A model generated the notes under the pieces. The model had not been told where the DNA came from. It was given only the letters and a program-made list of their open reading frames with translations, and ran no database searches. Positions 12,534-62,520 of a stretch of DNA of 64,000 bases are shown here, in pieces. The stretch spans positions 2,978,001-3,042,000 of the forward strand of contig NZ_CP082944.1 in NCBI RefSeq assembly GCF_019933155.2, given 5' to 3'. Made by a program: the position numbers and the translations under genes. The first letter of the stretch is position 1; each line of letters begins with the position of its first letter. This DNA is from Metabacillus dongyingensis (GTDB taxonomy: Bacteria > Bacillota > Bacilli > Bacillales > Bacillaceae).

Positions 12534-13242
12534 AAAAACCGCCTCTCCCAACTAATGTCAAATTAATCAGATCTATGATATCAATATAATTTTCATTAAT
12601 AAAAAAGTGCCCTCCTGGATAGCCGCGGACTTGGCTGTCTTTTGAAGTAAAGTCAGTCCATTTTTTCATATCTTCCTCAGTTATATCATCCTGCTTACCG
12701 TACATAGCAGTAATACTAGTGTTTAATTTGTACCCTTCTCTGCTAAATTCATATTCTTCTATCAATTTAAAGTCAGACCTTAAAATCGGTAAATATATAT
12801 CCATTAACTCCTGATTATTAAGAATCTCTTTTGGAGTACCATTTAGTTTACCTATTTTTTCTTTGAATTCTTTTTCAGGTAAATTATGAACTTTCTTTTC
12901 TCTAACATGGTTAGGAGGTTTTATGCCTGACAGAAAAATATGAGCAGGGGAATGTAAGCCTTCGCTCACCATTTTTTTACAAAGTTCATAGGCGATAAGT
13001 CCTCCCATGCTATGTCCAAAAAACGAATAATTACTTTTGTTTATATAATCAGTTATATTTTCGAATATATCATTTGTGATCTCATTCATATCTTGATAGC
13101 AGCATTCTTGAAATCTCTTTCCTCTCCCTGCATAGTGAATAGGCTGCAGCTCAATGCTATGGTGTAAATAATTGCGCCAATTATTGAATATTGACCCTGA
13201 TCCTCCAGCGTAGGGAAAACAAAAAAGAACCAATTTACTCAT
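12514..13242 (-). CDS. Type II thioesterase of the NRPS/PKS cluster
   Basis: 242-residue alpha/beta hydrolase of the GrsT/SrfAD family, which clears mis-primed or stalled acyl groups from carrier domains. The nucleophile elbow is GHSMGGL near residue 96, and the C-terminal GGHFFI supplies the catalytic histidine. The N-terminus LFCFPYAGGSGSIF is typical of the family. No signal peptide is visible, as expected for a cytoplasmic editing enzyme. The ATG is preceded by AAGGGG. The 3' end overlaps the next NRPS gene by 20 bp and contains its ribosome binding site, so it is the proximal member of a coupled operon. Confidence in the family is high; carrier targets are inferred from the neighbours. 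Confidence 0.93.
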   Translation of the reverse strand: MSKLVLFCFPYAGGSGSIFNNWRNYLHHSIELQPIHYAGRGKRFQECCYQDMNEITNDIFENITDYINKSNYSFFGHSMGGLIAYELCKKMVSEGLHSPAHIFLSGIKPPNHVREKKVHNLPEKEFKEKIGKLNGTPKEILNNQELMDIYLPILRSDFKLIEEYEFSREGYKLNTSITAMYGKQDDITEEDMKKWTDFTSKDSQVRGYPGGHFFINENYIDIIDLINLTLVGRGGFYDQSYI

Positions 13243-39401: not shown

Positions 39402-40616
39402 CTACTTTAAAAAGTTAAGAGCAGAAAGTGTGTAGATTTGCACAGTTTCAACGAGCTCATCAATATCAACATATTCATCGGCATGATGGGGAATATGGCG
39501 GTCACCTGCTCCTGTTGTAATGATCGGCACACCTGCAAGGTGAAGGAACGTCCCGTCTGTCGCCCCAGGGACCCCATTGTATACGGGTTCTTTGCCTGTA
39601 ACTTGCTTATAAGCCTGAGCTACTGCTTGTACCACCTCATGATCTTTTGATGTTTCTGTCCAAGGTCTGTCTTCAATCAATTCAAGTGTAGCTTTGAAAT
39701 GTGGATCTTCTTTACCCAGCTGTTCAATAATGACTTCTATTTCTTTCCTCAATTGATGATGCTCTTGCCCGGGAACCGTCCGAATATCCAGTGTAGTCAT
39801 ACATTGTGCGGGAACTACATTGATTTGCGGTTCTCCCTTAACTGGCGCTTGCAAGATAGTTGGAGTAATACTAGGCCATCCAAGATAGGGATGTTCACCC
39901 ATCCGTTCTTTTTCCCGCTGTTCCAATTGGTCCAATTCTACGATTAATTTAGCCATTCGTGTATTTGGATTAATTCCGGTGAGCGGCATCGCACCATGAG
40001 CCATTTTTCCGTAAGTTTTTAATACAATGCGCATCGCCCCTTTTTGTGTAATACAGAGCTGATTCTCCTCAGGTTCACAGATAATAGCTCCATCCACTCC
40101 ATCTGCCCATCCTTTTTTAATAAAATCTTTAATTCCGATCATCATTCCCTCTTCATCGCATGGGATACAAAGGATTATTTTCCCATTAAAAGCAGCGTCT
40201 GATTTTTTTATAGAATGAACAGCAGAAATGGCTGCAGCAAGGTTTCCTTTCGTATCACAAGAACCTCTGCCATAAATTCTGCCATTGCTGACTTCTCCGC
40301 CAAAAGGATCATATGTCCATGAATCAATATCTCCTTCAGTCACTACATCCGTATGTCCTTCAAATAAGAGAGTTTTGCCTGGAATGCCAGAGTCATAAAC
40401 CGCAATAACATTTGGCCGTCCTGGCACCACTTCTTCATAATAAACTTCTAATCCGATGTTCTTAAGATAGTCATCTATGAAACGGGCGACTTTTTCCTCG
40501 TTTCCGCCCTCGACATTTGGACGATAGACACTTTGTATACGAATAAGACTCCTTGTCAGTTCAATCACTTCTTTTTTATCAATAAAAGGAAGAATAGATT
40601 CTATCGCTGCTGTCAT
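39402..40616 (-). CDS. M20 family metallo-deacylase (ArgE/DapE type)
   Basis: 404 residues. Metal and catalytic motifs of the M20 family are in place: FEGHTDVVTEGD, GRGSCDTKGN, the Glu pair in CDEEGMMIG, ICEPEENQLCITQKGAM and the C-terminal IPHHADEYV. The family cleaves N-acyl amino acids, carbamoyl-beta-alanine and dipeptides with two zinc ions. It is the last gene of the sigma-54 operon, 15 bases behind the P1 amidase. In the proposed scheme it, or the P1 amidase, hydrolyses the amide between an acyl group and beta-alanine, as in pantothenate. Alternatives are N-acetyl-amino-acid or succinyl-diaminopimelate-like deacylation. Confidence 0.88.
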   Translation of the reverse strand: MTAAIESILPFIDKKEVIELTRSLIRIQSVYRPNVEGGNEEKVARFIDDYLKNIGLEVYYEEVVPGRPNVIAVYDSGIPGKTLLFEGHTDVVTEGDIDSWTYDPFGGEVSNGRIYGRGSCDTKGNLAAAISAVHSIKKSDAAFNGKIILCIPCDEEGMMIGIKDFIKKGWADGVDGAIICEPEENQLCITQKGAMRIVLKTYGKMAHGAMPLTGINPNTRMAKLIVELDQLEQREKERMGEHPYLGWPSITPTILQAPVKGEPQINVVPAQCMTTLDIRTVPGQEHHQLRKEIEVIIEQLGKEDPHFKATLELIEDRPWTETSKDHEVVQAVAQAYKQVTGKEPVYNGVPGATDGTFLHLAGVPIITTGAGDRHIPHHADEYVDIDELVETVQIYTLSALNFLK

Positions 40617-40631
40617 GGCAAACGTCCTTTC

Positions 40632-41603
40632 TTAATGAGATTCATTGACTTCGTTACTTGATGGAAAGCCCTTAATTCCTTCTGCATTCTTAACAGCCAG
40701 AATGACCGCTTCTGCCAAAATGTCAGCAGCAATCGTTCCAATCAGGTCAACTGATGCACTCATATCCCCCGTACTCAGGGAAAAGATTGTGTCTCCATCA
40801 AACATCGTATGCACAGGATAGATGGTTCTCGCTAATCCATTATGTGCCATGGAGGCTACTTTAGAGGCCTGCGATTTAGTTAACTTCGCATTGCAGGCAA
40901 CCACCCCTATTGTTGTATTAGTACCGGGCTTTAGGGGAATGGAAGGCTGCTCTAGCATCCATTCTAAACTGCTCTTTATTTTCCCCTGATCATCTCTGGC
41001 ACCGGCAATCACTTCTCCCGTTTCGGGATTTCGAATTTCCCCCATCGCATTAACTGCAACAATGGCTCCTACAACCAAACCATTTGGAAAAACTCTAGAA
41101 GCGGAACCAAGCCCGCCCTTCATAGCCCGATCGTGACCAGCTATTTTTCCAACCGTAGCCCCGCAGCCCGCTCCTGAATTACCTAACGGGAAATATCCTC
41201 TTTTTGCGTTTGATGCAGCCTTATATCCCATTTTCTGATCTGGACGAATAGAAGGGTCCCCTACGGGCAAATCAAACAGGACAGCTGAGGGAACAATCGG
41301 AACCACTCCTGCACCTACATCCAGACCAATACCTTTCTTTTCCAAAAACTGCATAACACCACTTGCTGCATCAAGGCCATAGGCACTTCCTCCCGCCAGG
41401 CAGATACTGTGAACCCGGTCTATAAGGTTCACTGGATTCAGTAAATCGGTTTCCCTTGTTCCTGGAGCTGAACCCCTAACATCTACTCCGCATACAGCAC
41501 CTTTCTCCAACAATAAAACGGTACAGCCCGTATAACCAAATTTGTCCTCTTCATTCCCTACTTTTACACCAGGAACGTCTGTTATGTTATAAAACCGTTC
41601 CAC
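40632..41603 (-). CDS. P1 family peptidase (DmpA/NylC-type N-terminal-nucleophile amidase)
   Basis: 323 residues. The N-terminal YNITDVPGVKVGNEED, the GGSAYGLDAASGVM block and the NTTIGVVACNAKLTKSQ segment identify the DmpA/P1 group. In these enzymes self-cleavage occurs just before a Ser or Thr (here Thr of NTT, near residue 235), which becomes the nucleophile. Known members act on beta-peptides, D-aminoacyl amides and nylon (6-aminohexanoate) oligomers, all amides of unusual amino acids. The start is GTG at 41603, overlapping the S-component stop by one base (TAGTG). Its place behind the S component suggests it cleaves the imported compound. Confidence 0.88.
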   Translation of the reverse strand: MERFYNITDVPGVKVGNEEDKFGYTGCTVLLLEKGAVCGVDVRGSAPGTRETDLLNPVNLIDRVHSICLAGGSAYGLDAASGVMQFLEKKGIGLDVGAGVVPIVPSAVLFDLPVGDPSIRPDQKMGYKAASNAKRGYFPLGNSGAGCGATVGKIAGHDRAMKGGLGSASRVFPNGLVVGAIVAVNAMGEIRNPETGEVIAGARDDQGKIKSSLEWMLEQPSIPLKPGTNTTIGVVACNAKLTKSQASKVASMAHNGLARTIYPVHTMFDGDTIFSLSTGDMSASVDLIGTIAADILAEAVILAVKNAEGIKGFPSSNEVNESH

Positions 41604-42160
41604 TACAATTCTCCTGAAATCTTTGATTTCTTGTTTCCGCTATGGTCCAGCTTTTTCCATGCGACAACCACCGCAAGCGTAATGATCACGGAAACAATTG
41701 CTTCCGGTATTCCGTTGGTTACAGCAATCGTAACCGCGACACCTGGAGCAATATATCCTCTGATTACCGCCATTGTCAAAACAAGCAGCGTATTGGTAAA
41801 TGCACCTACAAATCCTGCCACCCCAATAGCGGCATATTCGTTGACTCTCTTCAAGGAAATGTAAGATAAATAGGCTGTTACTCCAATAAACAATCGCGGC
41901 AGTATAGCAACCAGCGGGTCTTTGAATAACGGAATGGTTGCATCAAGGAACGAAGACACACCGAAGATCAGTCCAATGACTAATCCAACAAACGGGCCTT
42001 GCATGACTCCTCCTATTATTGCCGGGACATGCATGATAGTAGCGTTCCCCGCTGCAGTTGGAACAGGAATAAAACCTAATCGGGTGACACCAAGCAAAAT
42101 AGCTACTGCTCCTAATACTCCGGCAATGACAATCTTTCTAGTGGTTAGACCTTTTTCCAT
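41603..42160 (-). CDS. ECF transporter substrate-binding S component
   Basis: 185 residues, six hydrophobic helices. The N-terminal region contains the S-component helix-1 motif (IVIAGVLGAVAILLG) and the loop block TIMHVPAIIGGVMQGPFVG seen in the ECF_trnsprt (PF12822) group that includes vitamin carriers such as PanT, RibU and FolT. The substrate cannot be read from sequence; a pantothenate-like ligand is proposed from the neighbours. AAGGAGG precedes the ATG. It follows its own T and A subunits, so the operon encodes a complete, probably dedicated, ECF transporter. Confidence 0.85.
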   Translation of the reverse strand: MEKGLTTRKIVIAGVLGAVAILLGVTRLGFIPVPTAAGNATIMHVPAIIGGVMQGPFVGLVIGLIFGVSSFLDATIPLFKDPLVAILPRLFIGVTAYLSYISLKRVNEYAAIGVAGFVGAFTNTLLVLTMAVIRGYIAPGVAVTIAVTNGIPEAIVSVIITLAVVVAWKKLDHSGNKKSKISGEL

Positions 42161-42232
42161 TCGATTACCCTCCTTATTTTTTCAGACTGCTAGAATGGTA
42201 TTGCATTTTAAATAATAGAAATGGATTAAAAT

Positions 42233-43078
42233 CTAATAGGGAAATGGAAATGCCAATAATAGAATAGTAAATAGAATACAGAAAAGGAGTGCACTATAAT
42301 CTCTGCTTTGAGCTTTATATTTTGTATAAATTGACCGTTCACTCCCCGGGGTATAGCATCTGGATTCCATAGCAAGCACTAAATCTTCAGCCCTCGCCAT
42401 CGCAACATTGAATAATGGAATGATAATCGGAAAGACATCCTTGGTCCGCTGGATAATTCTCCACCATGCTCCTGTGCCAAATTCTGCCCCTCTTGAGGCT
42501 TGAGCTTTCATCATTTTTTCCATTTCCACTGCAAATGTAGGAACAAAGCGAATCGCAATCGTAATGATTAGAGCAAATTCATGAACCGGAAACTTAACAT
42601 GCTTTAAAGGTCTTAACAGACTTTCGATACCATGTGTAATTTGTGTGGTTGAAGTGCTTAAGGTTAATACACTGCTTAAAAAAATGATTTCAATAAATCG
42701 AAGGGCAGAAACGATTACCAGACGAACGCTGTCACTAGTAATAAGAATAAATCCATAATCGACAAAAACCGTTCCGCCTGAAGCAATTTCGCTATAGAAT
42801 AACAGCTGCAATACCGCTAAGATCAAAATGAAAGGGACAGCCGGCTTGACTCCTGACAAACCATAGCTAATCGGAATACGTGACATATAAAATAAATAAC
42901 ATGCAAAAGCTAGTGCAATTATATTTCCCCCATATGTGTCACAAATAGCCATTGCTATGACAAGGATGGTAAATGCCAAGAGCTTCATGCGAGGATCCAT
43001 ACGATGAATGAGAGAACCTGTGGGCAAATACTGCCCTATGGTAATATTTCGGGTTAACTCGAATTCAAAACCAGCCAT
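42233..43078 (-). CDS. ecfT: ECF transporter transmembrane subunit EcfT
   Basis: 281 residues from the ATG at 43078, with AGGAGG eight bases upstream. An in-frame GTG at 43087 would leave no room for that site. The CbiQ/EcfT family is shown by GSLIHRMDPRMKLLAF near the N-terminus, about five helices and the coupling helix region QASRGAEFG, the Ala-Arg-Gly motif that contacts the ATPases, followed by a second motif ARAEDLVLAMESRCY. It scaffolds the S component and the two ATPases. It lies five bases behind ecfA2 and 72 bases before the S gene. Confidence 0.92.
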   Translation of the reverse strand: MAGFEFELTRNITIGQYLPTGSLIHRMDPRMKLLAFTILVIAMAICDTYGGNIIALAFACYLFYMSRIPISYGLSGVKPAVPFILILAVLQLLFYSEIASGGTVFVDYGFILITSDSVRLVIVSALRFIEIIFLSSVLTLSTSTTQITHGIESLLRPLKHVKFPVHEFALIITIAIRFVPTFAVEMEKMMKAQASRGAEFGTGAWWRIIQRTKDVFPIIIPLFNVAMARAEDLVLAMESRCYTPGSERSIYTKYKAQSRDYSALLFCILFTILLLAFPFPY

Positions 43079-43083
43079 TTTCC

Positions 43084-43956
43084 TCACCTCCTATTTGACT
43101 GAATGACAGAAACCAGTTCTTTTGCTGCAGCCTCTATTTCATATGCATTAAGATTGACTGAATATCCTCGTTCTTTTAGCTGCGCCAGAATCTCCACCGT
43201 TTGAGGTGCTCCAATATGATGTTTTGCCAGGATTTCGGAATTGCCGAATATGTTTCCCGGTGTTCCTTCAATCAGATTTCTTCCTTCTGCTAAAACGTAA
43301 ATTCGATTTGCTAAATACGCAACTTCCTCCATGTTGTGAGAGACAAAAATGACTGTCATATTTTCCTTTTTGTTCAACTGAAGTATTTGCTCCAAAAGTT
43401 CCTGTCTTGACCTTGGATCAAGGCCTGCTGTCGGTTCGTCCAATACCAAAATTTCAGGCTTTAAAGCAAGCACCCCGGCCAGAGCGACTTTTCTTTTTTG
43501 GCCGCCGCTTAAGGCATAGGCAGCACGATCTTTCAGGTCTTCAAAGGAAAGCCCAACCAATTCCATTGCCCATTTCACACGGTCTCTTACTTCTTTTAAA
43601 GGAAGTCCCATCTTTAATGGGCCATAAGCAATATCATCACCAATCAATTTTTCGAAAATCTGATCCTCTGGATTCTGAAACACAAGGCCGACCTTTCTCC
43701 GCAGCGCTTTTACATCTAGCTTTGGATTAGATAAATGCTGGCCGTCCACTATAACATTACCCTGCTGAGGGCGCATCAGCCCATTAAAGTGCTGAATTAA
43801 AGTCGATTTGCCTGACCCTGTATGTCCAATAATTGCTATACATTCCCCCTTATCAACACGTAAACTTACTCCGGAGAGGGCCTTGTGTTCAAGAGGTGTC
43901 TTTTCCATATAGATATGATGTAAGTCCTTCACTTCAAGAATGGGAAATTCACTCAA
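43084..43956 (-). CDS. ecfA2: ECF transporter ATPase EcfA2
   Basis: 290 residues. Walker A GHTGSGKST, Q-loop in LVFQNPEDQIFE, signature LSGGQKRKVALAG, Walker B ILVLDEPTAGLD and the H-loop in FVSHNMEEV are present. The C-terminal extension is typical of energy-coupling-factor ATPases. The start is TTG at 43956 overlapping the ecfA1 stop, with GAGGGG upstream; the stop region contains the ecfT ribosome binding site. It pairs with EcfA1 as the heterodimeric motor. Confidence 0.93.
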   Translation of the reverse strand: MSEFPILEVKDLHHIYMEKTPLEHKALSGVSLRVDKGECIAIIGHTGSGKSTLIQHFNGLMRPQQGNVIVDGQHLSNPKLDVKALRRKVGLVFQNPEDQIFEKLIGDDIAYGPLKMGLPLKEVRDRVKWAMELVGLSFEDLKDRAAYALSGGQKRKVALAGVLALKPEILVLDEPTAGLDPRSRQELLEQILQLNKKENMTVIFVSHNMEEVAYLANRIYVLAEGRNLIEGTPGNIFGNSEILAKHHIGAPQTVEILAQLKERGYSVNLNAYEIEAAAKELVSVIQSNRR

Positions 43957-44816
43957 CCTGCATACACCCCTCTTTTGGCTGATAAACGGATTACCTCTTG
44001 AACGATCTCGTTATTATGAATCAAATCAGCCTCATATTCATTGTCATATTTATGAATCAGCCTTGCTAATTGGCTTGCTACAGGGACATCCAGCTGCAAT
44101 CGATGCAGCAGTTCATGCTGCTGAAAAATTTCTCTTGGTGCACCATCCAATACGATTTGACCTTTTTCAATGACAATAACCCGGCTTGCTTCAGCTACCT
44201 CTGACATATGGTGGGTTACAGTAATGATCGTCATACCGTCGTTATTAAGCTTGCGGACAACATCCAGAATATCTCTTCTTCCATAAGTGTCCAGCATACT
44301 GGTCGCTTCATCCAGGACAATGCAATCAGGCTTCATCGCAAGGATTCCCGCAATAGCAACCCGCTGCTTTTGGCCTCCTGAGAGATGATGAGGAGGGCGA
44401 TTCCGAAATGCACTCATCCCAACCGCTTCTAATGCAAAATCAATTCTTGCCTTCATTTCTGAAGCAGGTACTCCGATATTCTCCAGCCCAAAAGCTACAT
44501 CATCTTCAACAATCGTCGAAACAATCTGGTTATCGGGATGCTGAAAGACCATCCCTACTTTTTGACGGATCTCACGGAGCAGTCCTCCATCTCTGGTATT
44601 TAAACCATCCACAAAAATATCGCCAAGCTGCGGTTTTAGAATTCCGTTAAAATGCTTTGACAGCGTTGACTTTCCAGAGCCATTATGACCAATTATCGCC
44701 ACATATTCACCCGGATGTACATCAAAGGTAACGTTCTGCAGAACAGGAACAGTCTTTTGGTTGTTAATTGTATATTCAAACGAAATTCCATCTATTTTAA
44801 TGAATGGTTTACTCAT
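43953..44816 (-). CDS. ecfA1: ECF transporter ATPase EcfA1
   Basis: 287 residues. Walker A GHNGSGKSTLSKHFNG, Q-loop in MVFQHPDNQIV, signature LSGGQKQRVAIAG, Walker B CIVLDEATSMLD and the H-loop in VTHHMSEV mark an energy-coupling-factor ATPase. The Ser-Met variant in ATSMLD is characteristic of the EcfA1 partner of the EcfA1/EcfA2 dimer. The ATG overlaps the dehydrogenase stop (TAATG). Presence of a complete motor within a catabolic operon is unusual because vitamin S components normally share one motor encoded near ribosomal protein genes. Confidence 0.93.
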   Translation of the reverse strand: MSKPFIKIDGISFEYTINNQKTVPVLQNVTFDVHPGEYVAIIGHNGSGKSTLSKHFNGILKPQLGDIFVDGLNTRDGGLLREIRQKVGMVFQHPDNQIVSTIVEDDVAFGLENIGVPASEMKARIDFALEAVGMSAFRNRPPHHLSGGQKQRVAIAGILAMKPDCIVLDEATSMLDTYGRRDILDVVRKLNNDGMTIITVTHHMSEVAEASRVIVIEKGQIVLDGAPREIFQQHELLHRLQLDVPVASQLARLIHKYDNEYEADLIHNNEIVQEVIRLSAKRGVYAG

Positions 44817-45589
44817 TACACTCCCCTTCCTCCATCAACATTCATGATTTCCCCAGTAACAGCCCTGGCGAGATCAGAAGCAAGATATAGTGCCGCTTGG
44901 GCAATATCCTCAGGCTGAATTAACGTACCTAAAGGAACACTTTCAAGAAAAATTTTCTTTTTATCCTCTTCTACTTTTTGCGGATCGCCAGGTAAAAATC
45001 TCTCAAGCATTGGTGTTTCAGCAGGGCCTGGATTAATGGCATTGACCCGTATTTTAAAAGGAGCCAATTCCAGCGCCAATGCCCTGGTTAACATAATCGC
45101 TGCTCCTTTAGATGCACAATATGCATTTAATCCTGGCCTGGCCCTTATTCCTGCTATCGATGCGATATTTATAATCGATCCTTTTTCCTTTCTTTTCATA
45201 ATAGGAACAAGATGACGGGTTGTTAGAAAAATCGATTTCAAATTAACAGACATAATTTTATCCCATTCACTTAAGCTCATTTCTTCTATCGGGGTAAAGA
45301 ATTGCGGAACGCCGGCACAATTAATCAGAATATCTATATCTTCAAATTCATTAAATGCCTCTTTGACAAGATTTTGGACACTTTCGTCATCTCCTACATC
45401 TGTATAAACCGTCTTAACGTGTCCTGTTCGATCTATTTCTTCCGCCGTCTGGTCTGCTGCATCTTTATTTATGTCAGATAGAACCACGTTTGCCCCTTGT
45501 GCTGCAAACAATTTAGCTGCAGCTTTTCCCATACCTGAGCCCGCACCTGTAATAACGGCTGTTTTTCCTTCTAACAATCTTGCAGTCAC
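44816..45589 (-). CDS. Short-chain dehydrogenase/reductase, proposed pantoate 4-dehydrogenase
   Basis: 257 residues of the classical SDR family: TGAGSGMGKAA cofactor loop, NCAGVPQF, the catalytic Ser in NIASIAG, and YCASK with the Tyr and Lys. Asp39 after the second beta strand (VVLSDIN) favours NAD(H). The C-terminus is the usual VTGEIMNVDGG. The GTG start at 45589 overlaps the ALDH stop by four bases. The generic fold does not give the substrate. Its position between an aldehyde dehydrogenase and a transporter suggests oxidation of a primary alcohol to an aldehyde, as pantoate to 4-dehydropantoate (EC 1.1.1.106). Confidence 0.9.
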   Translation of the reverse strand: MTARLLEGKTAVITGAGSGMGKAAAKLFAAQGANVVLSDINKDAADQTAEEIDRTGHVKTVYTDVGDDESVQNLVKEAFNEFEDIDILINCAGVPQFFTPIEEMSLSEWDKIMSVNLKSIFLTTRHLVPIMKRKEKGSIINIASIAGIRARPGLNAYCASKGAAIMLTRALALELAPFKIRVNAINPGPAETPMLERFLPGDPQKVEEDKKKIFLESVPLGTLIQPEDIAQAALYLASDLARAVTGEIMNVDGGRGV

Positions 45590-47037
45590 AGGTTCATCAC
45601 CACCATTCGCTCATCTGTCATTTCTTGAATCGCATAGTGCGGCCCTTCCTTCCCAAGGCCACTGTTTTTCACTCCCCCATAAGGCATAACGTCATTACGA
45701 TAAGTGGATACATCATTAATAATGACTCCACCGTATTCCAGAACTTTTGCCGCCCTCATAGCCAGCTGCAAATCACGTGTGAAAATTCCTGCCTGTAAAC
45801 CATATTCTGATTGATTAGCAGAATGAAATGCCTCTTCAATATCTTGATAAGGGATGATACAAACGATTGGGGCAAAGACTTCTTTACATACAACCTTCAT
45901 GGCAGGATTCGTGTCAACGAGTACCACTGGATATAAGACCGCCCCTTCCCTCTTTAATGGAAGCAAAGATTTGGCACCTTGTTCTATGGCTTCTCTCACC
46001 CATTCCTCTGATCGAATAGCATCTTTCTCACTGATCATCGGGCCCACATCTGTTTCTGTTTTTTCAGGATCGCCGACTATCAGCTGCTGAACATGCGATA
46101 AGTAGTTTTCCGTAAACTCTTTTAATACCGATTGATGGATATATAAGCGCTGTACAGCTATACAGGCTTGTCCAGCATTATGAAAACTTCGGCTTGCCGT
46201 CAGTTTTGCAGCAAGTTCAAGATCTGCATCATTATGAACAATATTTGGAGAATTGTTTCCCAGTTCAAGCGCCACAGGCCTCAGTCCGCTTCGTTCTTTA
46301 ATATGCTTGCCTACTTCACCAGAACCCGTGAACGTATACATGGCAATTCGTTCATCTTCCAATAGCCATTCACCCACTTCACTTCCTGTTCCGGTAATGA
46401 TGTTCACATATCCCTTGGGAAGACCTGCTTCTTCTAAGAGTTCTACTAGCTGAAAGGTCGCAAGAGGAGTTGAAGTTGCTGGTTTAATTACAATGGTATT
46501 TCCAGCCGCAAGAGCTGGCGCTATTTTATGGATGCCCAATAATAAAGGATAATTGAATGGAGTAATCACTCCTATGACACCTTTAGGAACACGAATGGTA
46601 AATCCCAGCCGGTTATCTGATCCTTCTGTCGCCTGAAGAGGAATCATTTCTCCTGCTATTCGTTTAGCTTCTTCAGCAGACAATCGAATCGTGTTAATCG
46701 TGCGATCCAGTTCCCCTGATGCATCTTTGCGTGTTTTTCCAACTTCTCTTACTAATGAAACCTCAAAATTCTCTCGTCTTTGTTCCATTAAGTCTGCTGC
46801 TTTTGATAGAATATTAGACCGTTGATAGGCAGTTAATTTGTTTGATTTAAAGATTTTTTCAGCAGCACTCACAGCTTCCTTTACATGTTGTTTTTCCGCT
46901 TTAGAGATTGATGCAATCAATTCACCTGTGTACTTGTGATAGACAGGAATATGATGTACTGTGTGAATGTGTTCACCGTTAATGTATAAATGGAAGTTTT
47001 TATGATTCAGCAGGGATGTTTGTATCTCAGTCATCAT
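45586..47037 (-). CDS. Aldehyde dehydrogenase family protein, proposed aldopantoate dehydrogenase
   Basis: 483 residues from the ATG at 47037 (AAGGAG six bases upstream). The ALDH fold shows GVIGVITPFNYPLLL (cofactor loop), TFTGSGEVGKHI, the general-base Glu in ALELGNNSPNI and the nucleophile Cys in FHNAGQACIA, with the closing NSGLGKEGPHYA. Substitution of the usual GG after ELG by NN occurs in some branches acting on hydroxylated or phosphorylated aldehydes. It would oxidise an aldehyde to an acid with NAD(P). It is packed between the beta-decarboxylating dehydrogenase and the SDR, which fits conversion of 4-dehydropantoate to 3,3-dimethylmalate. No CoA-acylating motif is seen. Confidence 0.92.
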   Translation of the reverse strand: MMTEIQTSLLNHKNFHLYINGEHIHTVHHIPVYHKYTGELIASISKAEKQHVKEAVSAAEKIFKSNKLTAYQRSNILSKAADLMEQRRENFEVSLVREVGKTRKDASGELDRTINTIRLSAEEAKRIAGEMIPLQATEGSDNRLGFTIRVPKGVIGVITPFNYPLLLGIHKIAPALAAGNTIVIKPATSTPLATFQLVELLEEAGLPKGYVNIITGTGSEVGEWLLEDERIAMYTFTGSGEVGKHIKERSGLRPVALELGNNSPNIVHNDADLELAAKLTASRSFHNAGQACIAVQRLYIHQSVLKEFTENYLSHVQQLIVGDPEKTETDVGPMISEKDAIRSEEWVREAIEQGAKSLLPLKREGAVLYPVVLVDTNPAMKVVCKEVFAPIVCIIPYQDIEEAFHSANQSEYGLQAGIFTRDLQLAMRAAKVLEYGGVIINDVSTYRNDVMPYGGVKNSGLGKEGPHYAIQEMTDERMVVMNL

Positions 47038-47047
47038 TTTCATCTCC

Positions 47048-48133
47048 TTATATAGAATTCATGCTCATTTTGGTCATTTGCTTGTTAATGGCTTCTCCAA
47101 ATTCTATTGTCGTATTTTTACCGCCGAGATCAGGGGTAGATACATTTTTTTCAAGAAGAACCTCTTCAATAGAAGAAACGATCAAGTCGCCTATATCAGA
47201 ATAGCCAAGATGCTCCATCATTAAGCTAATACTCCAGATTTGTGCAATTGGATTGGCAATTCCTTTTCCGGCGATGTCAGGTGCAGAACCATGAATCGGT
47301 TCGAACATCGACGGATAGTTTTTTTCCGGATTAATGTTTCCGGAAGGCGCAAGACCAAGGCCACCGACAATGGCTGCACCAAGATCAGTTAAAATATCGC
47401 CAAACAGGTTGCTGCCAACGACTACATCCAATTCTTCCGGTCTTGTAATAAAGTAAGCAGCCAGTGCATCAATATGATAAATATCAGTCTTGATGTTCGG
47501 ATGATGCATGCCGACTTCTCTGACGATTTCATCCCAGAAAGGCATCGAGTGATTTATACCATTCGATTTTGTTGCTGCCGTCAGCCTTCTCTTAGGTCTT
47601 TTTTCAGCAAGCGAATAGGCATATTTGATGACTCTTTCGCTTCCATATCTCGTAAAAACATTATTTTGTACCGCCAGCTCAAAAGGAGTATTCTCGTGAA
47701 GGCGCCCTCCCATGTTGGAATATTCCCCTTCAGTATTTTCACGGACTACAACAAAATTCAAATCATCATGAGCTTTATACCGGAGGGGACTGTTCAAACC
47801 TCTTAATAGTTTAATAGGCCTCAAATTGATATACTGCTGAAAGGCTCTGCGAATGGGCAAGATCAGTTCCCATACTGAAATGTGATCAGGCACAGTTGGG
47901 GCACCAATTGCCCCAAGCAGAATGACATCATAATCCCGCAGAATGTCCAAGCCATTTTCCGGCATCATCTTTCCGTGTTTTAAGTAGTAATCACAATTCC
48001 AATCAAATGTGTCTATGGAGAAATGAATTCCTCCGTGGAGTTCCTGAATTTTCTTTAATGTTTTTAATCCTTCTGCCATGACTTCAGGGCCAATTCCATC
48101 ACCAGGTATGGCAGCTATTGAAAAATGTTGCAA
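47048..48133 (-). CDS. Beta-decarboxylating dehydrogenase (tartrate/D-malate/dimethylmalate dehydrogenase type)
   Basis: 361 residues of the isocitrate/isopropylmalate dehydrogenase superfamily, DmlA/YcsA branch. Features are AAIPGDGIGPEV, YINLRPIKLLRGLNSPL with the substrate-binding Args, VVVRENTEGEYSNMGG, a catalytic Lys in TAATKSNGI, the metal Asp pair of VVGSNLFGDILTDLG, and EPIHGSAPDIAGKG. Branch members oxidatively decarboxylate (R)-malate or tartrate, and dimethylmalate dehydrogenase (EC 1.1.1.84) also accepts (R)-malate. The start is TTG at 48133, with AGAGGTGA six bases upstream. It is the first gene behind the sigma-54 promoter at 48171. The operon context favours 3,3-dimethylmalate to 2-oxoisovalerate and CO2. 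Confidence 0.92.
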   Translation of the reverse strand: MQHFSIAAIPGDGIGPEVMAEGLKTLKKIQELHGGIHFSIDTFDWNCDYYLKHGKMMPENGLDILRDYDVILLGAIGAPTVPDHISVWELILPIRRAFQQYINLRPIKLLRGLNSPLRYKAHDDLNFVVVRENTEGEYSNMGGRLHENTPFELAVQNNVFTRYGSERVIKYAYSLAEKRPKRRLTAATKSNGINHSMPFWDEIVREVGMHHPNIKTDIYHIDALAAYFITRPEELDVVVGSNLFGDILTDLGAAIVGGLGLAPSGNINPEKNYPSMFEPIHGSAPDIAGKGIANPIAQIWSISLMMEHLGYSDIGDLIVSSIEEVLLEKNVSTPDLGGKNTTIEFGEAINKQMTKMSMNSI

Positions 48134-48170
48134 GCTATCACCTCTTTTTGTTCTGTTAATAGATTATTAA

Positions 48171-48186
48171 TGCAAGTTCTATGCCA
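48171..48186 (-). promoter_or_regulatory. Sigma-54 (SigL) -24/-12 promoter of the nine-gene operon
   Basis: On the minus strand TGGCAT, five bases, then TTGCA: the GG and GC doublets are exactly ten bases apart, as required, and only one base departs from TGGCAC-N5-TTGCA. It lies 38 bases before the TTG start. Upstream, the 12-bp palindrome CATTAATTAATG (48250-48261), a TTCAG / CTGAA inverted pair (48189-48213) and repeated TGAAAC elements could bind the activator encoded next door. Confidence 0.85.
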
Positions 48187-48295: not shown

Positions 48296-50137
48296 CTAGA
48301 GTTTATATTCTTTTATTTTCCTCCAAAGTGTTGATCGATCAATTCCAAGTGATTTTGCTGCTTCTGCCTTACTTTCATATTGCTTTAGCGCTACTTGGAT
48401 TAAATCTTTTTCTTTTTCTTTAATGGTCGCATTGCCAGCAGTTGTGTCGGATCTGTTTATTCTAAGTTTAGGATAATAATACGAGGCATCTTTTGCAGAT
48501 ATGGCTGAATCTTGTTGAAGCAAGACAATTCGTTCCAAGACATTTCTTAACTCACGGATATTTCCCGGCCAGTGATACTCTTGTAATACAGAAAAAAAGT
48601 CTTCATCAATCTTTTCAATTTGTTTGCGGTGCTGTTCATTGAATTGCCGGATAAAATGGCGGGTAAGGAGGGGGATATCAGCAAGCCTTGTGCGTAATGG
48701 CGGCAAATCAAGTGAAAGCACATTTAAACGATAGTATAAATCATTTCTAAACCGCTTATTTTCAATTTCGGATTCAATGTTTGTATTGGTTGCTGCGATA
48801 ATACGAACATTCACAGGTATTGTTCGCTTGCCCCCAATCCTTCGAATTGATCTCTCCTGTAAAACTCTTAATAAGTGCGCCTGAATTTGCAATGGCATTT
48901 CACCTATTTCATCCAAAAATAAAGTTCCTCCATGCGCCAATTCAAATAGTCCTTGTTTTCCTCCTTTTCTTGCTCCTGTAAAACTTCCTTCTTCATAGCC
49001 AAATAGTTCACTCTCTAGTAAACTTTCAGGGAATGCGGCACAATTAACTGCCACAAAAGGTCCAATTGCTCTGGTGCTTTGTAAATGAATTCCCTGGGCA
49101 AATAATTCTTTTCCTGTTCCAGACTCCCCTGTAATTAATACTGTAGCGTCCGTTTTTGCAAATACCTTGGCCTGTTCCTTTGCTTCACAGATTTTTTTTG
49201 CTTCTCCTACAATATCATTAAGTGTATATTTAGCCTCTAGACCATTCTCATGCAGCTTTTTCCTTAACTTCATTTCAAGCCTTTGCAGGTCTGTAATCTC
49301 TTTAAAATTGGATACTGCTCCTACAACAGTGTTATTAAGAATAACAGGATACCGATTAATCATGAATTGACGGTCCTGAATTTTGGCTACATCCCCTATT
49401 TCCTTCTTACCTGTTTGCAGAACTCTCAGCATATCAGAATTCGGGATATAATCTGTAATATTTCGGCCAATAACTTCTGCTTCCAAACCCAGAAATACTT
49501 TCGCATTATTATTGGTCAACGTGATTTTCCCTTGCCGGTCAACTGCTATTAAACCATCATGTGCAGAATCTACAATAGCCTGTACTTGATATTTTTCTTT
49601 AAACATCTCTTTCGTAACATCGATTAATTGGATTGCCTGACGAATAGCGGAAATTACCGTATCCATTGAAGGCTGAACAAAAAAGAGATGCTTCTTAGAT
49701 TGCTGTAAAAATGAAAGGTTTTTTTCCCAAGAAGAAACAAGAATGGATGTGTTTTTCTTTGCGTAGCCGTAATGAACCTGTTCCCTGCTGCAAATTTCAA
49801 AACGATTTTGATGCCTTATATGATTTTCAGTATCTAACCACTTTTTTTCTTCTTCTGAGACCATAATAAGAGGATTTTTATCGTTAAGATCATGATCTTC
49901 TATTGTTTTTTCGAAATCACTTAAATGAATGGACAATGAAACAACTGGGATGGAAAGTGAGTGAACCTCGTTTACATAAGTTAAGGGCGTAATTAGAACA
50001 AATGGGTTCATCATATGATCTATAACTGTTTTTTTTGAGTGAAAGCAGGAAGGCTGATGACCGTGTTCACTTAAAATTCGAGTGACGATTGCTTCTAGTG
50101 TTTTATTCAATTTATACAATGCGATCAATTTCTCCAC
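48296..50137 (-). CDS. Sigma-54-dependent transcriptional activator (PAS, AAA+, Fis HTH)
   Basis: 613 residues. The N-terminal ~190 residues resemble a PrpR-type effector region. A PAS domain (about 200-300: [18 protein letters not shown]) follows, then the AAA+ domain with Walker A GESGTGKE, the sigma-54 contact loop EEGSFTGA (Ser for the usual Ala of GAFTGA), [11 protein letters not shown] and the [13 protein letters not shown] arginine-finger region. A Fis-type helix-turn-helix ([17 protein letters not shown]) closes it. The start is uncertain between GTG at 50137 and a TTG three codons on. It lies directly upstream of the -24/-12 promoter on the same strand, so it is the likely activator of the operon, sensing its substrate or a product. 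Confidence 0.93.
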
Positions 50138-54453: not shown

Positions 54454-57400
54454 TTATTGTTTCGGCTCAAGACCGACAAGACGCAGGAAGTATTCCAGAC
54501 CTTTTTTGCCAATTTTTTCTTTTGGCTGTTTATCGGCAGGCGCATCCGGTCCCTTCGTTAAGAAATTTTTCTCAACGAAGCGAATGTCTGTTTCGTCTAC
54601 CACACCATCTTGATTGATATCTTGCGGCACGATAGATGAATCCTTCGTACCATATGCATCAACGACACTCTGGATATCGAGGATATCAATCATTTTGTCG
54701 CCATTCACATCCCCTGCAAGACTTCTCTGACCAATTCTTAAAAATTGCCCTCGTAGCTCTCCATTTGCATCATGATATCCAGGAATGAATTTCTTCATCA
54801 CTTTAAGATGCCCCGGAACATCGAAAACAGCTGTATATACTTGATCGGAAGCCGGAATATCATTGATCGTGAAGGATCCATTTTTATTAATTGTTCCTTT
54901 ATACTTTTTACCGCTTCTGGAGAGAGCGTATACTTGTGCTCCTATTTTTGAATAATCCCCTTTTTTCAAAAATGCTGATCCTGATTCATATATCAAAAAT
55001 GCTTCCGGCAATATGGATCCCAGCAACTGTGTATGTGTAGGAGTTATTTTAAGATCTTCAGTGCCGTAAAAAGGAATAGCAGTACCTGCTGTTTGTCCGG
55101 ATTTCTTATAAGACCCCTTCTTTACCTCAAATCCAGGAATTTCATCGTAAACTTCATCATTCGATACTTTAAACGTTACATCGAGGAACGGCATGTCTCC
55201 ATCCAGTCCTCTGAATACATTTCCAGTAATGGAAGCACCGATCTTCAAACTATTATTGAATGTACCTTCCGTCACAACAGGTTTATCTAGTGATACCTGT
55301 AAGCCTTTTTCATTTGCATATTGTTTTACTGCCTTGTTCAGCTTCACGTTCGAAAACTTGAAGAAGTCTTTGTAGTACTCTACATTAAATTCTCCCGAGA
55401 CAAGCTGTTTCACATTATTAAGGCTGAGTGTCATCGTAAAGTTATCGCCGACTTTTAACTCTTTCTTGTCATAACTGGAAGTCGTATATTCCGTTCCTTC
55501 TTTCATGAAGTAATACTTTTGGTAACCAACTGCTGTTGCAGTATCCCACGTTCTCAACCACAATCTCATAGGTTGTTTTGCTATATCACTTTCCTCAATT
55601 CCTAATTTCACATCTCCATTCGCTTGAACCGGGAAGAACCCAGCCATATATCCAGAGCCACCTGTATAGTAAGCCATAGTGTTGGACGATTGATTGACGT
55701 CCAACCCTTTAGATTGCAATAAATCCACTGTCTCATCCTTAGCTGTTCCATGCAGCCACACTGCTTTTTGGCCATCTTCTACTGTAAACATAGAATCATT
55801 GATTTCGATTACTCCCGATTTTATATCCATGTTTACTTCTGGTGCTGTATTGTCCACGATAAGCGGATTGTCTACCACATATGATCCACCTTCCTCATCG
55901 TGTGCAATCAGCTCCAGTATATAATCGCCTGCTGGAAGCTTTATAGGAATATCACTGATTGGCTGGGACGGATCATTTGTAAATGGTAAGACCGTACCGC
56001 TGAACGCACCCATAAGATACACTTCTCTATCTATTGGAAAGTTAGTGTTCGCTGTCCCTATGAACCCTACAGATTTTCCTGTTTTACTGTCTTTTACTAG
56101 CACATCCATGGTTGTCATTGGGCTGTTCAACTTCATGATGAAATGGATCATTGTGTCATTAAGTTCCCAGAAAGGTGTTGTATTTGTCACGGATGGTCTA
56201 GTCGCTTTGACATAATCAAATCCTTTTTCAGTCGCCATAACAGCAAATGGAATTTGATAGGTTTCGTCTGGATTGTTGGAATTGGTCACATGAATATACC
56301 CTTCATATCTTCCTGCCGCAGCGCTGGTTGGTATCGTTATTTTTGGCTGAAGCTCCTGTGACTGCCCGCTTGATACTGTAATCGATGAAGGCACAGCTAC
56401 TTTCACACCGTTCTTCACTGCATCTTGAATGCCTTTGCGCTCGCCGTGATACTCCACTTCTAGTTTATAAGATTTTTCTTCCTGGCTGTTGTTTTGAACC
56501 GTCACCTTTTTGCTTGCTTCAATTGGTTCATTACCTTTTTTATAATATCTGCCGAATACGATGGAGCCTGTTTGTTCGTCAATTTCTACGACGTTTCCAT
56601 TTTCGATATTTTTTGTCTTATCCCATACCTTGATGGATGTATCTGTATGAACCGATTGATAGGCATCGATTCGTCCTGCACCCACTTCGTATACAGAATA
56701 ATTCCCTTTTAAATCATCCGATGTATTCATGAGTGCCGTTTTCACATCGAAAGGAGTGTATTCTGGATGCTCCTGCAAAATCAATGCTGCTGTACCTGCT
56801 ACGTGAGGAGAAGCCATAGACGTTCCTGATAAGCGGACATAGGCATTGCCGTAATTAATGCCTTCCTGCGGATCGTTGATATATTCCGGTGTCGTAGAGA
56901 ATATCGACACACCTGGAGCGACTACATCCGGCTTAATATCATAATTTCCATTTACCGGTCCGCGTGAACTGAAATCTGCTAAATGATCGCCTTCTGTTTT
57001 TGTGTTATTTAACGTTTCAAATGTGAAAGAACCTTCGCCCAGCCCCTTTAATCGCTCACCATCCGCTTTTGACAGGCGGAAAGAAGGGATTAACCCGACG
57101 GCCTCACCCAAGTAGGCAGGTATTTGCCCGTCGACATTGTTATACACAATCACTGATTTAGCCCCAGCGTTTTTGGCGTTTTTGATTTTTTCATCAAACG
57201 CAAGTTCCCCGCGCTGAATCAACGCAATTTTCCCGCTGACATCTTTCCCGGCAAAATCAACCGCTTTACCAAGTCCCGCAAATACAATTGGTAAGGATTT
57301 TCCTTGCAATTCTTCTAATCTATCAGAAAAATCTTTGCCTAGCAGCTGCATATTTTCAAACTTCTCGGCGGAAGCGCTTCCACTAAATGCAGGAATGGAC

Positions 57401-58602
57401 ATGGAGGCATCGCTTGCACCTACTGATATGCCAAGAGCTGCTGTTCCTGGAGAGCCAAGAGTTTTTTCGTTCGGTCCGGAGTTGCCCGCGGCAACGACGG
57501 TCACCAGGCCTGAAATCATGGCGTTATTTACTGCGACAGAAGTGGCGTATAAAGGATCGTTAGTCTGCGCGCCAAGCGACAAATTGATGACGTCCATGCC
57601 ATCTTCAATCGCTTGATCGATTCCAGCAAGGATTCCTTCTGTATTTCCCCCTCCCCAAGGTCCCAATACTCTATACGCATATAAATCTACTTCAGGTGCT
57701 ACCCCTTTCACAGCATAATCCACATTGTTTTTCTTTTGGGCTGCAATCGTCCCTGCGACATGTGACCCATGGTTTGTGTAATACACATAGCCGGGAACTG
57801 TTGGCTTGCCCTCTTTTATCCAATCCTCATATGTGGTTTCCATCGGATCTGCATCATTATCTACAAAATCATATCCGCCTTTATATGCTTCTTTTAAGTC
57901 TGGATGGTTGTAATCAATACCTGTGTCAAGAACGCCGACTTTAATGCCCTTGCCGGTAATGTTCTCGGCATGCAGCTTGTCCACGCCAATTTGCGGAATA
58001 CTGTCTGCCATTTTCGGATCGATGGCTTCTTTCGTTTTTACCGGCGGTTCCACTTTTACCTCGTAATCTTTAAAGATACGTTTAACTACACCAGATTGCA
58101 GCAAATCCTCCACTGCCACACCAGGCAGCGTCATCGCTACACCGTTGATGGCGTTTTTATACTCTCTAGTGATGTTTACATCTTCTGCTTTGTACTTGGT
58201 CACGTTTTTCTGTGATTTCAATGATTGCACATGCTGTTTAAAATCTTTATGAGCTTTTTCCACTTTCTCATTCGCATCAGCAGAAGATAGTTTCTTTCCT
58301 TTCGCTGCTTGTTTCATCACTTCAATTTTCGCCGGCGCCTGTTCAAATTCAACGATGACTTTGACTAATTCCGGACTATTTGCATTAATATCCGGAGAAA
58401 TCGTAAAGTTTGAATTGGTATCCAATTGCTCTAATGCCTTTCTTTGTTCTGCAGACAGGCTCGCTAAGATCTCTTCCGCATTTTCAACTGGATTCAGCTC
58501 AAACGAGCTTTGCGCCAATACGTTATATGGAGCGCCTTGAGATAGTAACATGCCAACAGCTAGCGTTCCTGTAAGAATTTTACTGATTTTTTTCCTCTTC
58601 AT
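54454..58602 (-). CDS. Secreted S8 subtilisin-like protease with PA, cohesin-like and dockerin domains
   Basis: 1382 residues. A Sec signal peptide (about 1-30) is followed by an I9-type propeptide. The S8 catalytic domain has Asp near 224 (GVLDTGIDY), His near 279 (NHGSHVAGT) and Ser near 593 (GTSMASPHVAG). A PA insert lies between the His and Ser blocks. Then come Fn3-like beta domains, a cohesin-like domain (about 1060-1210: KVGDNFTMTLSLNNVKQLVS), a carboxypeptidase-regulatory-like domain and a type I dockerin with two calcium loops (GDVNGDKMIDILDI; DINQDGVVDETDI). It lies outside any cellulosome context. AAGGTGA precedes the ATG. The promoter region is a copy of that of the next protease. 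Confidence 0.93.
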   Translation of the reverse strand: MKRKKISKILTGTLAVGMLLSQGAPYNVLAQSSFELNPVENAEEILASLSAEQRKALEQLDTNSNFTISPDINANSPELVKVIVEFEQAPAKIEVMKQAAKGKKLSSADANEKVEKAHKDFKQHVQSLKSQKNVTKYKAEDVNITREYKNAINGVAMTLPGVAVEDLLQSGVVKRIFKDYEVKVEPPVKTKEAIDPKMADSIPQIGVDKLHAENITGKGIKVGVLDTGIDYNHPDLKEAYKGGYDFVDNDADPMETTYEDWIKEGKPTVPGYVYYTNHGSHVAGTIAAQKKNNVDYAVKGVAPEVDLYAYRVLGPWGGGNTEGILAGIDQAIEDGMDVINLSLGAQTNDPLYATSVAVNNAMISGLVTVVAAGNSGPNEKTLGSPGTAALGISVGASDASMSIPAFSGSASAEKFENMQLLGKDFSDRLEELQGKSLPIVFAGLGKAVDFAGKDVSGKIALIQRGELAFDEKIKNAKNAGAKSVIVYNNVDGQIPAYLGEAVGLIPSFRLSKADGERLKGLGEGSFTFETLNNTKTEGDHLADFSSRGPVNGNYDIKPDVVAPGVSIFSTTPEYINDPQEGINYGNAYVRLSGTSMASPHVAGTAALILQEHPEYTPFDVKTALMNTSDDLKGNYSVYEVGAGRIDAYQSVHTDTSIKVWDKTKNIENGNVVEIDEQTGSIVFGRYYKKGNEPIEASKKVTVQNNSQEEKSYKLEVEYHGERKGIQDAVKNGVKVAVPSSITVSSGQSQELQPKITIPTSAAAGRYEGYIHVTNSNNPDETYQIPFAVMATEKGFDYVKATRPSVTNTTPFWELNDTMIHFIMKLNSPMTTMDVLVKDSKTGKSVGFIGTANTNFPIDREVYLMGAFSGTVLPFTNDPSQPISDIPIKLPAGDYILELIAHDEEGGSYVVDNPLIVDNTAPEVNMDIKSGVIEINDSMFTVEDGQKAVWLHGTAKDETVDLLQSKGLDVNQSSNTMAYYTGGSGYMAGFFPVQANGDVKLGIEESDIAKQPMRLWLRTWDTATAVGYQKYYFMKEGTEYTTSSYDKKELKVGDNFTMTLSLNNVKQLVSGEFNVEYYKDFFKFSNVKLNKAVKQYANEKGLQVSLDKPVVTEGTFNNSLKIGASITGNVFRGLDGDMPFLDVTFKVSNDEVYDEIPGFEVKKGSYKKSGQTAGTAIPFYGTEDLKITPTHTQLLGSILPEAFLIYESGSAFLKKGDYSKIGAQVYALSRSGKKYKGTINKNGSFTINDIPASDQVYTAVFDVPGHLKVMKKFIPGYHDANGELRGQFLRIGQRSLAGDVNGDKMIDILDIQSVVDAYGTKDSSIVPQDINQDGVVDETDIRFVEKNFLTKGPDAPADKQPKEKIGKKGLEYFLRLVGLEPKQ

Positions 58603-58710
58603 ACCGCATCACCTTGTCCCTATATAATTGTTTTTTTCTCTCTTAAACTTGTATATTTTTTACAAACAAGTTATTTAAAGAAAGATCCATGAAACTAGTT
58701 AACTAGATAC

Positions 58711-58803
58711 TGTCCTTATCATCCCACATTTCTACTTTTCTGAAAATTAAACATAGGAAGTAAATTTTGTAGTTATTGGTTCTATACCAATATAAAACAA
58801 AAG
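58711..58803 (-). promoter_or_regulatory. Conserved promoter block of the dockerin protease (copy 1)
   Basis: It aligns without gaps to 62521-62613 (constant offset 3810). The gene-distal box at 58776-58803 is identical in both over 28 bases and contains the inverted repeat TTGGT-N5-ACCAA. The gene-proximal box at 58711-58749 is also conserved (CTTTTCTGAAAATT). The 26 bases between have diverged. It is probably the binding region for a shared activator. The rest of 58603-58915 holds only the terminator of the other protease. Confidence 0.75.
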
Positions 58804-58872
58804 TACTACTACGCGACTTTTTATTTAATCATTCATCTTTTGCGTATAGAAATGGCACCATGCACCGGGCAT

Positions 58873-58904
58873 GAAAAAACCCAAGTGAATCATCCTCACT
58901 TGGG
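58873..58904 (-). terminator. Terminator after the second S8 protease
   Basis: CCCAAGTGA (58880-58888) pairs with TCACTTGGG (58896-58904); six T residues follow on the minus strand. It lies right behind the stop at 58916. Confidence 0.85.
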
Positions 58905-58915
58905 CCGCAATCGGT

Positions 58916-62461: not shown

Positions 62462-62520
62462 GAACATCTCTCCTTTTCCTTATAAAAAAATAAATAGATA
62501 AAACTAATAAACTTCAAATC

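Follow-up and report, generated by a model that had tools for sequence, protein, structure and literature searches.

A probable pantothenate (vitamin B5) catabolic operon with a dedicated ECF transporter in Metabacillus dongyingensis

Pantothenate (vitamin B5) is broken down by enzymes that were described biochemically decades ago, with the chemistry known from Pseudomonas: the steps in P. fluorescens are those of pantothenase (EC 3.5.1.22), pantoate 4-dehydrogenase (EC 1.1.1.106), 4-dehydropantoate dehydrogenase (EC 1.2.1.33) and dimethylmalate dehydrogenase (EC 1.1.1.84). Here, we describe nine genes in a 64,000-nucleotide stretch of the Metabacillus dongyingensis genome (contig NZ_CP082944.1, forward-strand positions 2,978,001 to 3,042,000; this whole stretch is called the window, and coordinates are its own) that very probably form a catabolic operon for this vitamin. 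A dedicated energy-coupling factor (ECF) transporter with a PanT-like substrate-binding (S) component would import pantothenate, an M20 metallohydrolase (M20) would hydrolyse it to pantoate and beta-alanine, a short-chain dehydrogenase (SDR) would oxidise the alcohol of pantoate to 4-dehydropantoate, an aldehyde dehydrogenase (ALDH) would oxidise this to 3,3-dimethylmalate, and a DmlA-like enzyme would oxidatively decarboxylate the latter to 2-oxoisovalerate and CO2. 2-Oxoisovalerate would then be passed to the branched-chain 2-oxoacid pathway, and an aminotransferase and a coenzyme A (CoA)-acylating semialdehyde dehydrogenase would deal with beta-alanine, the genes for all of these lying elsewhere in the same genome. 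An S58/P1 hydrolase (S58) probably feeds in one step earlier, splitting pantetheine into pantothenate and cysteamine, or is a second pantothenate hydrolase, and a sigma-54-dependent activator would switch the operon on. The substrates, the direction of flow and the inducer are what we infer from gene content and comparison; an earlier note on this DNA had proposed pantothenate uptake and a three-dehydrogenase route to 2-oxoisovalerate, and this is still the best-supported reading once 80 related loci and about 60 further regions are set beside it.

The genes, their order and the promoter element are read directly from the window. Nine open reading frames (ORFs) occupy positions 48133 to 39402 of the minus strand. 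Read in that direction they encode DmlA-like, ALDH, SDR, EcfA1, EcfA2, EcfT, EcfS, S58 and M20, and a promoter element and a regulator gene precede them:

48296..50137, minus strand: sigma-54-dependent activator, probable regulator, with PAS, AAA+ and Fis-type helix-turn-helix (HTH) domains and an N-terminal stretch without Pfam match
48171..48186, minus strand: -24/-12 (sigma-54) promoter element TGGCATAGAACTTGCA, recognised by sequence pattern
47048..48133, minus strand: DmlA-like beta-decarboxylating dehydrogenase, proposed 3,3-dimethylmalate dehydrogenase; PF00180, TIGR02089 at 526.9 bits (cut-off 470.4), loop residue Glu89
45586..47043, minus strand: aldehyde dehydrogenase, proposed 4-dehydropantoate dehydrogenase; PF00171 at 504.5 bits, motif Cys and Glu present
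44816..45589, minus strand: short-chain dehydrogenase, proposed pantoate 4-dehydrogenase; PF13561, NF005559 subfamily over its cut-off, YxxxK and GxxxGxG motifs
43953..44816, minus strand: EcfA1 ATPase; TIGR04520 at 370.1 bits (cut-off 315)
43084..43956, minus strand: EcfA2 ATPase; TIGR04521 at 354 bits (cut-off 330)
42233..43087, minus strand: EcfT transmembrane subunit; PF02361 at 119.9 bits
41603..42160, minus strand: EcfS substrate-binding subunit, PanT-like; PF12822 at 88.7 bits (cut-off 30.7)
40632..41603, minus strand: S58/P1 hydrolase, proposed pantetheine hydrolase or second pantothenate hydrolase; PF03576, Asn-Thr-Thr (NTT) self-cleavage site from residue 229
39402..40616, minus strand: M20 metallohydrolase, proposed pantothenase (pantothenate amidohydrolase); PF01546, TIGR01910 at 284.1 bits (cut-off 217.6)

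The first five junctions are, in operon order, a 4-base gap, a 4-base overlap, a 1-base overlap and two further 4-base overlaps, followed by a 72-base gap between EcfT and EcfS, a 1-base overlap between EcfS and S58 and a 15-base gap between S58 and M20. The element TGGCATAGAACTTGCA begins 53 bases ahead of the first start codon, that of the DmlA-like gene, and the strict -24/-12 pattern occurs twice in the 64-kb window, both strands counted. The activator gene, with its AAA+ and HTH domains, lies directly upstream. Each gene class was confirmed by Pfam and NCBIfam models; for the ALDH, no NCBIfam equivalog scored above its cut-off among the 25 best matches listed. The earlier claims of nine genes behind one sigma-54 promoter, of their classes, order and overlaps, and of enzyme classes that cover every step of the way from pantothenate to 2-oxoisovalerate, all hold up against the coordinates, the element, the adjacent activator and the model scores.

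By enzyme class the operon resembles the P. fluorescens pathway, with one right class per step and the same exits, 2-oxoisovalerate and beta-alanine; it differs in belonging to Bacillota, in pairing the enzymes with an ECF transporter and a sigma-54 promoter, and in having S58 as an additional hydrolase. According to an excerpt of PMC10393543, the pantothenase protein was unknown as of 2023, and EC 1.2.1.33 appears, in the excerpted 2007 table of an orphan enzyme activity survey, graded 'difficult' (PMC1940265). A literature search by pathway terms found no described gene set for the route among open-licence papers, and this speaks for novelty only weakly. Judged by the papers searched, what is new is that every step now has a candidate gene and that carriers and hydrolases can take each other's place around the dehydrogenase trio (SDR, ALDH and DmlA-like enzyme). 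The operon and its relatives also supply two unrelated pantothenase candidates, M20 and an amidase-signature enzyme.

Related loci (labelled L) were collected by a genome scan with the S58 query, of which the best 80 were retained, and about 60 further regions were drawn from sampled genomes; co-occurrence was counted in 398 sampled genomes of the class (labelled G). Genes in related loci were labelled by best BLASTP match to references from these loci or by reading the N-terminus, and family models were scored for tripartite ATP-independent periplasmic (TRAP) carriers in L125 and L263, PanB in L029, PanE in L029 and L048, CoaX in L022, CoaBC in L021 and the amidase in L004 and L251. The neighbourhood search that the earlier note had called for recovered its full set of nine families: all nine genes stand in the same order in two Fictibacillus loci (L001 and L002; 76-96% identical, with one major facilitator superfamily (MFS) gene inserted). 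In another genome of the same genus (G049), of which only this part was retrieved, EcfS, S58 and M20 are 99, 96 and 97% identical. Activator relatives precede the clusters in L001, L002, L003, L010, L012, L132, L136-L139 and L222, and the strict -24/-12 pattern is found in 20 of 44 gaps between an activator relative and the next labelled gene, these 44 counting some places twice and taking in that of the window itself as well as an unrelated one from the same genome (L086). Next after the L001 operon comes a gene for a CoA-acylating methylmalonate-semialdehyde dehydrogenase (MMSDH; 622.3 bits against a cut-off of 448.5) and then one for a class III aminotransferase, the pair that use of beta-alanine would need; both border the ECF form in L128 as well as in L001, and no such pair follows the nine genes in L002.

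In sampled whole genomes, the dehydrogenase trio occurs with every type of carrier known for this vitamin. An excerpt of PMC12570885 gives PanF, PanT and PanS as the identified bacterial pantothenate importers, with PanS also carrying pantoate and ketopantoate. PanF, a pantothenate carrier named independently of this operon, scores 694 to 741 bits against a curated cut-off of 328 in the clusters of five relatives, with the order PanF-M20-DmlA-SDR-ALDH in L093, L205 and L207, PanF-M20-SDR-ALDH in L218 and aminotransferase-MMSDH-PanF-amidase-DmlA-SDR-ALDH in L251/L265. PanS-like carriers stand with DmlA-SDR-ALDH in L135 and L248, where no hydrolase gene was seen; the trio is next to TRAP carriers in L125-L127, L129, L131, L133, L134 and L263, and Opp-type carriers occur in L008, L013, L014, L204, L206 and L208. 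These arrangements may be read as pantoate-capable carriers coming without a hydrolase and pantothenate carriers with one, a rule that L130 leaves incomplete, the symporter next to M20 there not being PanF. Also recurrent is an MFS carrier with 69-85% identity to that of L001 (L001:5459-6784, L002:5445-6761, L130:5873-7330, L137:17890-19212, L139:17170-18513, L222:12856-14187), which is a possible pantoate carrier. A GlcD-like flavin adenine dinucleotide (FAD) oxidase recurs beside TRAP, MFS or PanF genes (L125:16258-17619, L130:4396-5766, L218:12622-14085, L222:11465-12844); the L125 copy, the only one scored, falls below the TIGR00387 cut-off.

Presence in the 398 genomes was called at 68% identity or more for DmlA and at E <= 1e-120 for M20, E <= 1e-50 for EcfS and E <= 1e-60 for S58, giving DmlA in 35 genomes, M20 in 45, EcfS in 45 and S58 in 64, the last count including partial matches and matches with internal stops in some genomes. 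The M20, EcfS and S58 tables are complete, and the DmlA table has 54 rows, comprising all those of at least 68% identity and selected lower ones. M20 was found in 33 of the 35 DmlA genomes (Fisher p 8.7e-36, uncorrected for relatedness, as are all Fisher values, with most carrying genomes coming from one family, f37), and M20 and EcfS share 36 genomes. Of the 33 genomes with both M20 and DmlA, 15 have the pair no more than 10 kb apart, 8 have it farther apart on the same contig and 10 have it on different contigs, so that adjacency alone does not account for the association.

The earlier note had left open whether the S58 or the M20 enzyme performs the first step; both are present, and the PanF-M20 clusters and the genomes without S58 now favour M20. 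M20 residues His88, Asp121, Glu155, Glu156 and His377, which we take to be the metal-site residues, are invariant in 29 proteins, and the S58 enzyme combines family membership with the Asn-Thr-Thr self-cleavage site. M20 appears the likelier pantothenase because 6 of the 45 M20 genomes have no S58 match at E <= 1e-60 (G133, G143, G220, G236, G334 and G437, three of which contain the PanF clusters L218, L207 and L205), because the S58 match is partial in G291 (with two stops) and in G370, where M20 and EcfS match over almost their full length, and because M20 and the amidase-signature enzyme occupy the same place behind PanF. In Neobacillus, an amidase-signature gene takes the M20 position in L004 and L006; the L004 genome has no M20 match and the L006 genome has both.

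We consider it rather unlikely that, within the same pathway, S58 is the pantothenase and M20 has some other role. Such an assignment would suit L008, L013 and L014, where S58 stands with DmlA, SDR and ALDH in genomes without an M20 match at E <= 1e-60, so that S58 may release pantoate there, and it would suit the 42 genomes that share EcfS and S58, several of them without M20. It fits poorly with the PanF-M20 clusters that lack S58 (L093, L205, L207 and L218), with the genomes lacking an S58 match and the partial S58 matches given above, and with S58 relatives that adjoin CoaX-like genes (L017, L022, L028, L071) or CoaX and CoaBC (L021), where splitting pantothenate would be wasteful. With M20 as the candidate pantothenase, S58 more likely acts on pantetheine or as an alternative hydrolase. 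ThnT, described in excerpts of PMC13062082 and PMC6097109 as the pantetheine hydrolase of thienamycin biosynthesis, acting on the pantetheine amide, has the S58 fold and NTT site in common with the operon enzyme; it differs in that the best PDB match of the latter is nylon hydrolase, not ThnT, and in the catabolic context of the operon gene.

S58-EcfS-CoaX clusters recur in Clostridia (L017, L022, L028, L071, L244; L021 with CoaBC), some after a biotin-ligase gene, and may be an unrecognised unit for salvage of pantetheine or pantothenate. In an annotated C. difficile record, genes for biotin ligase, P1 peptidase, ECF S component and type III pantothenate kinase follow one another. A plasmid search for a mobile or Pseudomonas version matched M20 in 18 records, all below 60% identity and 15 of them from Thermus, and EcfS in 2 records. 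On one Thermus thermophilus plasmid (L243), the M20 relative (43%) lies between SDR and ATP-binding cassette (ABC) carrier genes; genes upstream encode a class III aminotransferase and a PucR regulator.

The S component had been assigned to the group that includes pantothenate carriers, and the assignment is now sharper: PanT chains are its sole clear sequence matches in the PDB and also its best folds among solved S components, making PanT the nearest solved relative. EcfS Arg89, Asn123 and Phe66 align with PanT Arg95, Asn131 and Trp64, and these Arg, Asn and Trp residues are named as important for pantothenate binding in PanT (PMC7755397); the Arg and Asn are kept in all 29 aligned EcfS proteins. 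While matching the ECF-PanT transporters (PDB 4rfs, 6zg3) best, the operon differs from them in having its own A1-A2-T genes, Phe for Trp and linkage to breakdown enzymes, whereas PanT is linked to CoA supply. The PanU/YhfU system of B. subtilis is likewise an ECF-type pantothenate uptake system in a Bacillus relative; as described in an excerpt of PMC11487621, it has another S protein and a shared energising module and serves CoA, and that excerpt mentions no breakdown genes. If the proposed function is right, an ECF vitamin transporter would here serve catabolism, not cofactor supply.

Within the trio, the DmlA-like enzyme offers a residue that follows context. In a loop ahead of the conserved PIRR stretch, 31 of the 32 linked proteins, among them that of the window, have Glu89 (W-E; L208 has Gln), and this holds for both of the two deep groups that operon DmlAs form in a tree; the loop is W-G, with Gly89, in all four proteins from unlinked contexts. 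In a second set of 20 further DmlAs, picked by us from genome-search rows outside the first set, residue 89 is Glu in 3, Gly in 14, Asp in 2 and Gln in 1, and all three Glu89 proteins adjoin SDR and ALDH (L248, L251, L263), against none of the 14 with Gly89. We find it quite improbable that the trio has a different hydroxy acid as its substrate (2,4-dihydroxybutyrate, a tetronate or malate/tartrate, for instance) and is merely co-controlled with a pantothenate uptake and hydrolysis unit. The DmlA-like enzyme does score over the cut-off of a family curated as tartrate dehydrogenase, and it shares with tartrate dehydrogenase/decarboxylase and DmlA (TIGR02089, PDB 3flk) family membership and a proposed oxidative beta-decarboxylation; the trio also accompanies TRAP carriers without a hydrolase in many genomes (the loci listed above), and an Asp89 DmlA relative is accompanied by a Rieske oxygenase, an ALDH and a BCCT carrier in a carnitine-like cluster with the same ALDH-then-DmlA ending (L256:3117-8502). 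Against a different substrate are PanF beside the trio in four clusters and PanS-like carriers in two, the co-occurrence of trio DmlA with M20 even when unlinked, and Glu89 in place of the Gly. In the tree, the four Gly89 DmlAs from unrelated contexts fall within one of the operon groups, a point against the pantothenate reading; because of this nesting, the residue may have changed together with function, which is a correlation and no measure of specificity. Context and residue 89 together lower the likelihood of a tartrate or malate role.

The own genome (5,416,110 bases, two contigs), whose S58 protein has 97% identity to one named Metabacillus dongyingensis, contains candidates for the fate of both products. 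Near C1:1.97 Mb, genes for an aminotransferase and an MMSDH are direct neighbours, with 74 and 76% identity to their L001 counterparts. Near C1:3.48-3.49 Mb, genes for butyrate kinase, the E1-alpha, E1-beta and E2 subunits of a 2-oxoacid dehydrogenase and methylmalonyl-CoA mutase adjoin an activator 48% identical to the window's; judged by its gene set, this is read as a bkd cluster, and separate pyruvate and 2-oxoglutarate dehydrogenase loci were found by eye. PanB and PanC are also present, and the operon is therefore not needed for making pantothenate. This bears on a salvage role, in which transporter and hydrolases would supply pantothenate, pantoate or beta-alanine for CoA and not for carbon. 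The Clostridia S58-EcfS-CoaX clusters do resemble salvage, and ECF-EcfS-S58 or ECF-EcfS alone occurs in some genomes (L209-L215), but in a genome with PanB and PanC, and with a trio that would destroy pantoate, we regard such a role as very improbable.

Several further observations count against pantothenate catabolism and are weighed together here. The Trp important for binding in PanT is Phe in all 29 aligned EcfS proteins, EcfS has an internal stop in 4 of 45 genomes (G100, G197, G330 and G099), and B. subtilis takes up pantothenate with PanU, another S protein. M20 is rare near home, in 3 of 80 genomes of the family, and G101 and G256 have a close DmlA and no M20 match. The PanS-like carriers score 284.5 and 294.4 bits, below the curated cut-off of 400. 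On the product side, the aminotransferase and MMSDH genes lie outside the window's operon, the model matched by the L001 aminotransferase bears a general name only, and in the bkd-like cluster E1-alpha is below the pyruvate dehydrogenase cut-off and E1-beta is over that of one subfamily so named. The best models likewise give the name pyruvate dehydrogenase to the 2-oxoacid dehydrogenase genes close to DmlA in L132, as they do to part of those in the own genome; a link in L132 between DmlA-SDR and a branched-chain dehydrogenase was not counted, as the L132 E1-alpha scores as pyruvate dehydrogenase.

A variant with reversed biosynthetic enzymes may exist outside Bacillota. Genes for LIV-type ABC carrier, M20, S58, PanE (ketopantoate reductase) and PanB (ketopantoate hydroxymethyltransferase) stand in this order in Atribacterota bins L029 (8680-12821) and L038 (8681-12875), S58, PanE and M20 in Spirochaete bin L048 (1379-4363), and in Chloroflexi bin L025 (65-8535) PanE and PanB are divergent from an ECF-M20-S58-EcfS set. 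PanC had no match in these four genomes or in three further Atribacterota genomes with M20, their completeness not being stated and the PanC model matching 9 of 14 control genomes; PanE lies beside M20 and S58 in 4 of the 7 genomes without a PanC match. Working in reverse, PanE and PanB would convert pantoate to 2-oxoisovalerate and release a one-carbon unit. More broadly, though this is less likely than not, several phyla might consume CoA-derived pantetheine and vitamin B5 in modular fashion, with S58 splitting pantetheine, M20 or the amidase-signature enzyme as pantothenase, and pantoate processed by SDR-ALDH-DmlA in Bacillota or by reversed PanE/PanB in Atribacterota, Chloroflexota and Spirochaetota. 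If catabolism is indeed the role, the operon bears on vitamin B5 consumers in microbial communities.

These neighbours also bear on a role in the use of beta-peptides or N-acyl beta-amino acids, in which S58 would act as a peptidase resembling BapA/DmpA. The family membership of S58 and its relatives beside Opp-type carriers (L008, L013, L014, L204, L206, L208) would agree with it; the PanT-like S component and the PanF, PanS-like, CoaX, PanE and PanB neighbours would be left unexplained, and we judge this the most improbable of the alternatives.

Elsewhere in the window, two large synthase genes (2528-12551) encode a two-module nonribosomal peptide synthetase and a polyketide synthase ending in a male-sterility-type reductase domain, and a tandem pair of genes (54454-62467) encodes very large subtilase-family proteins of 1382 and 1183 residues.

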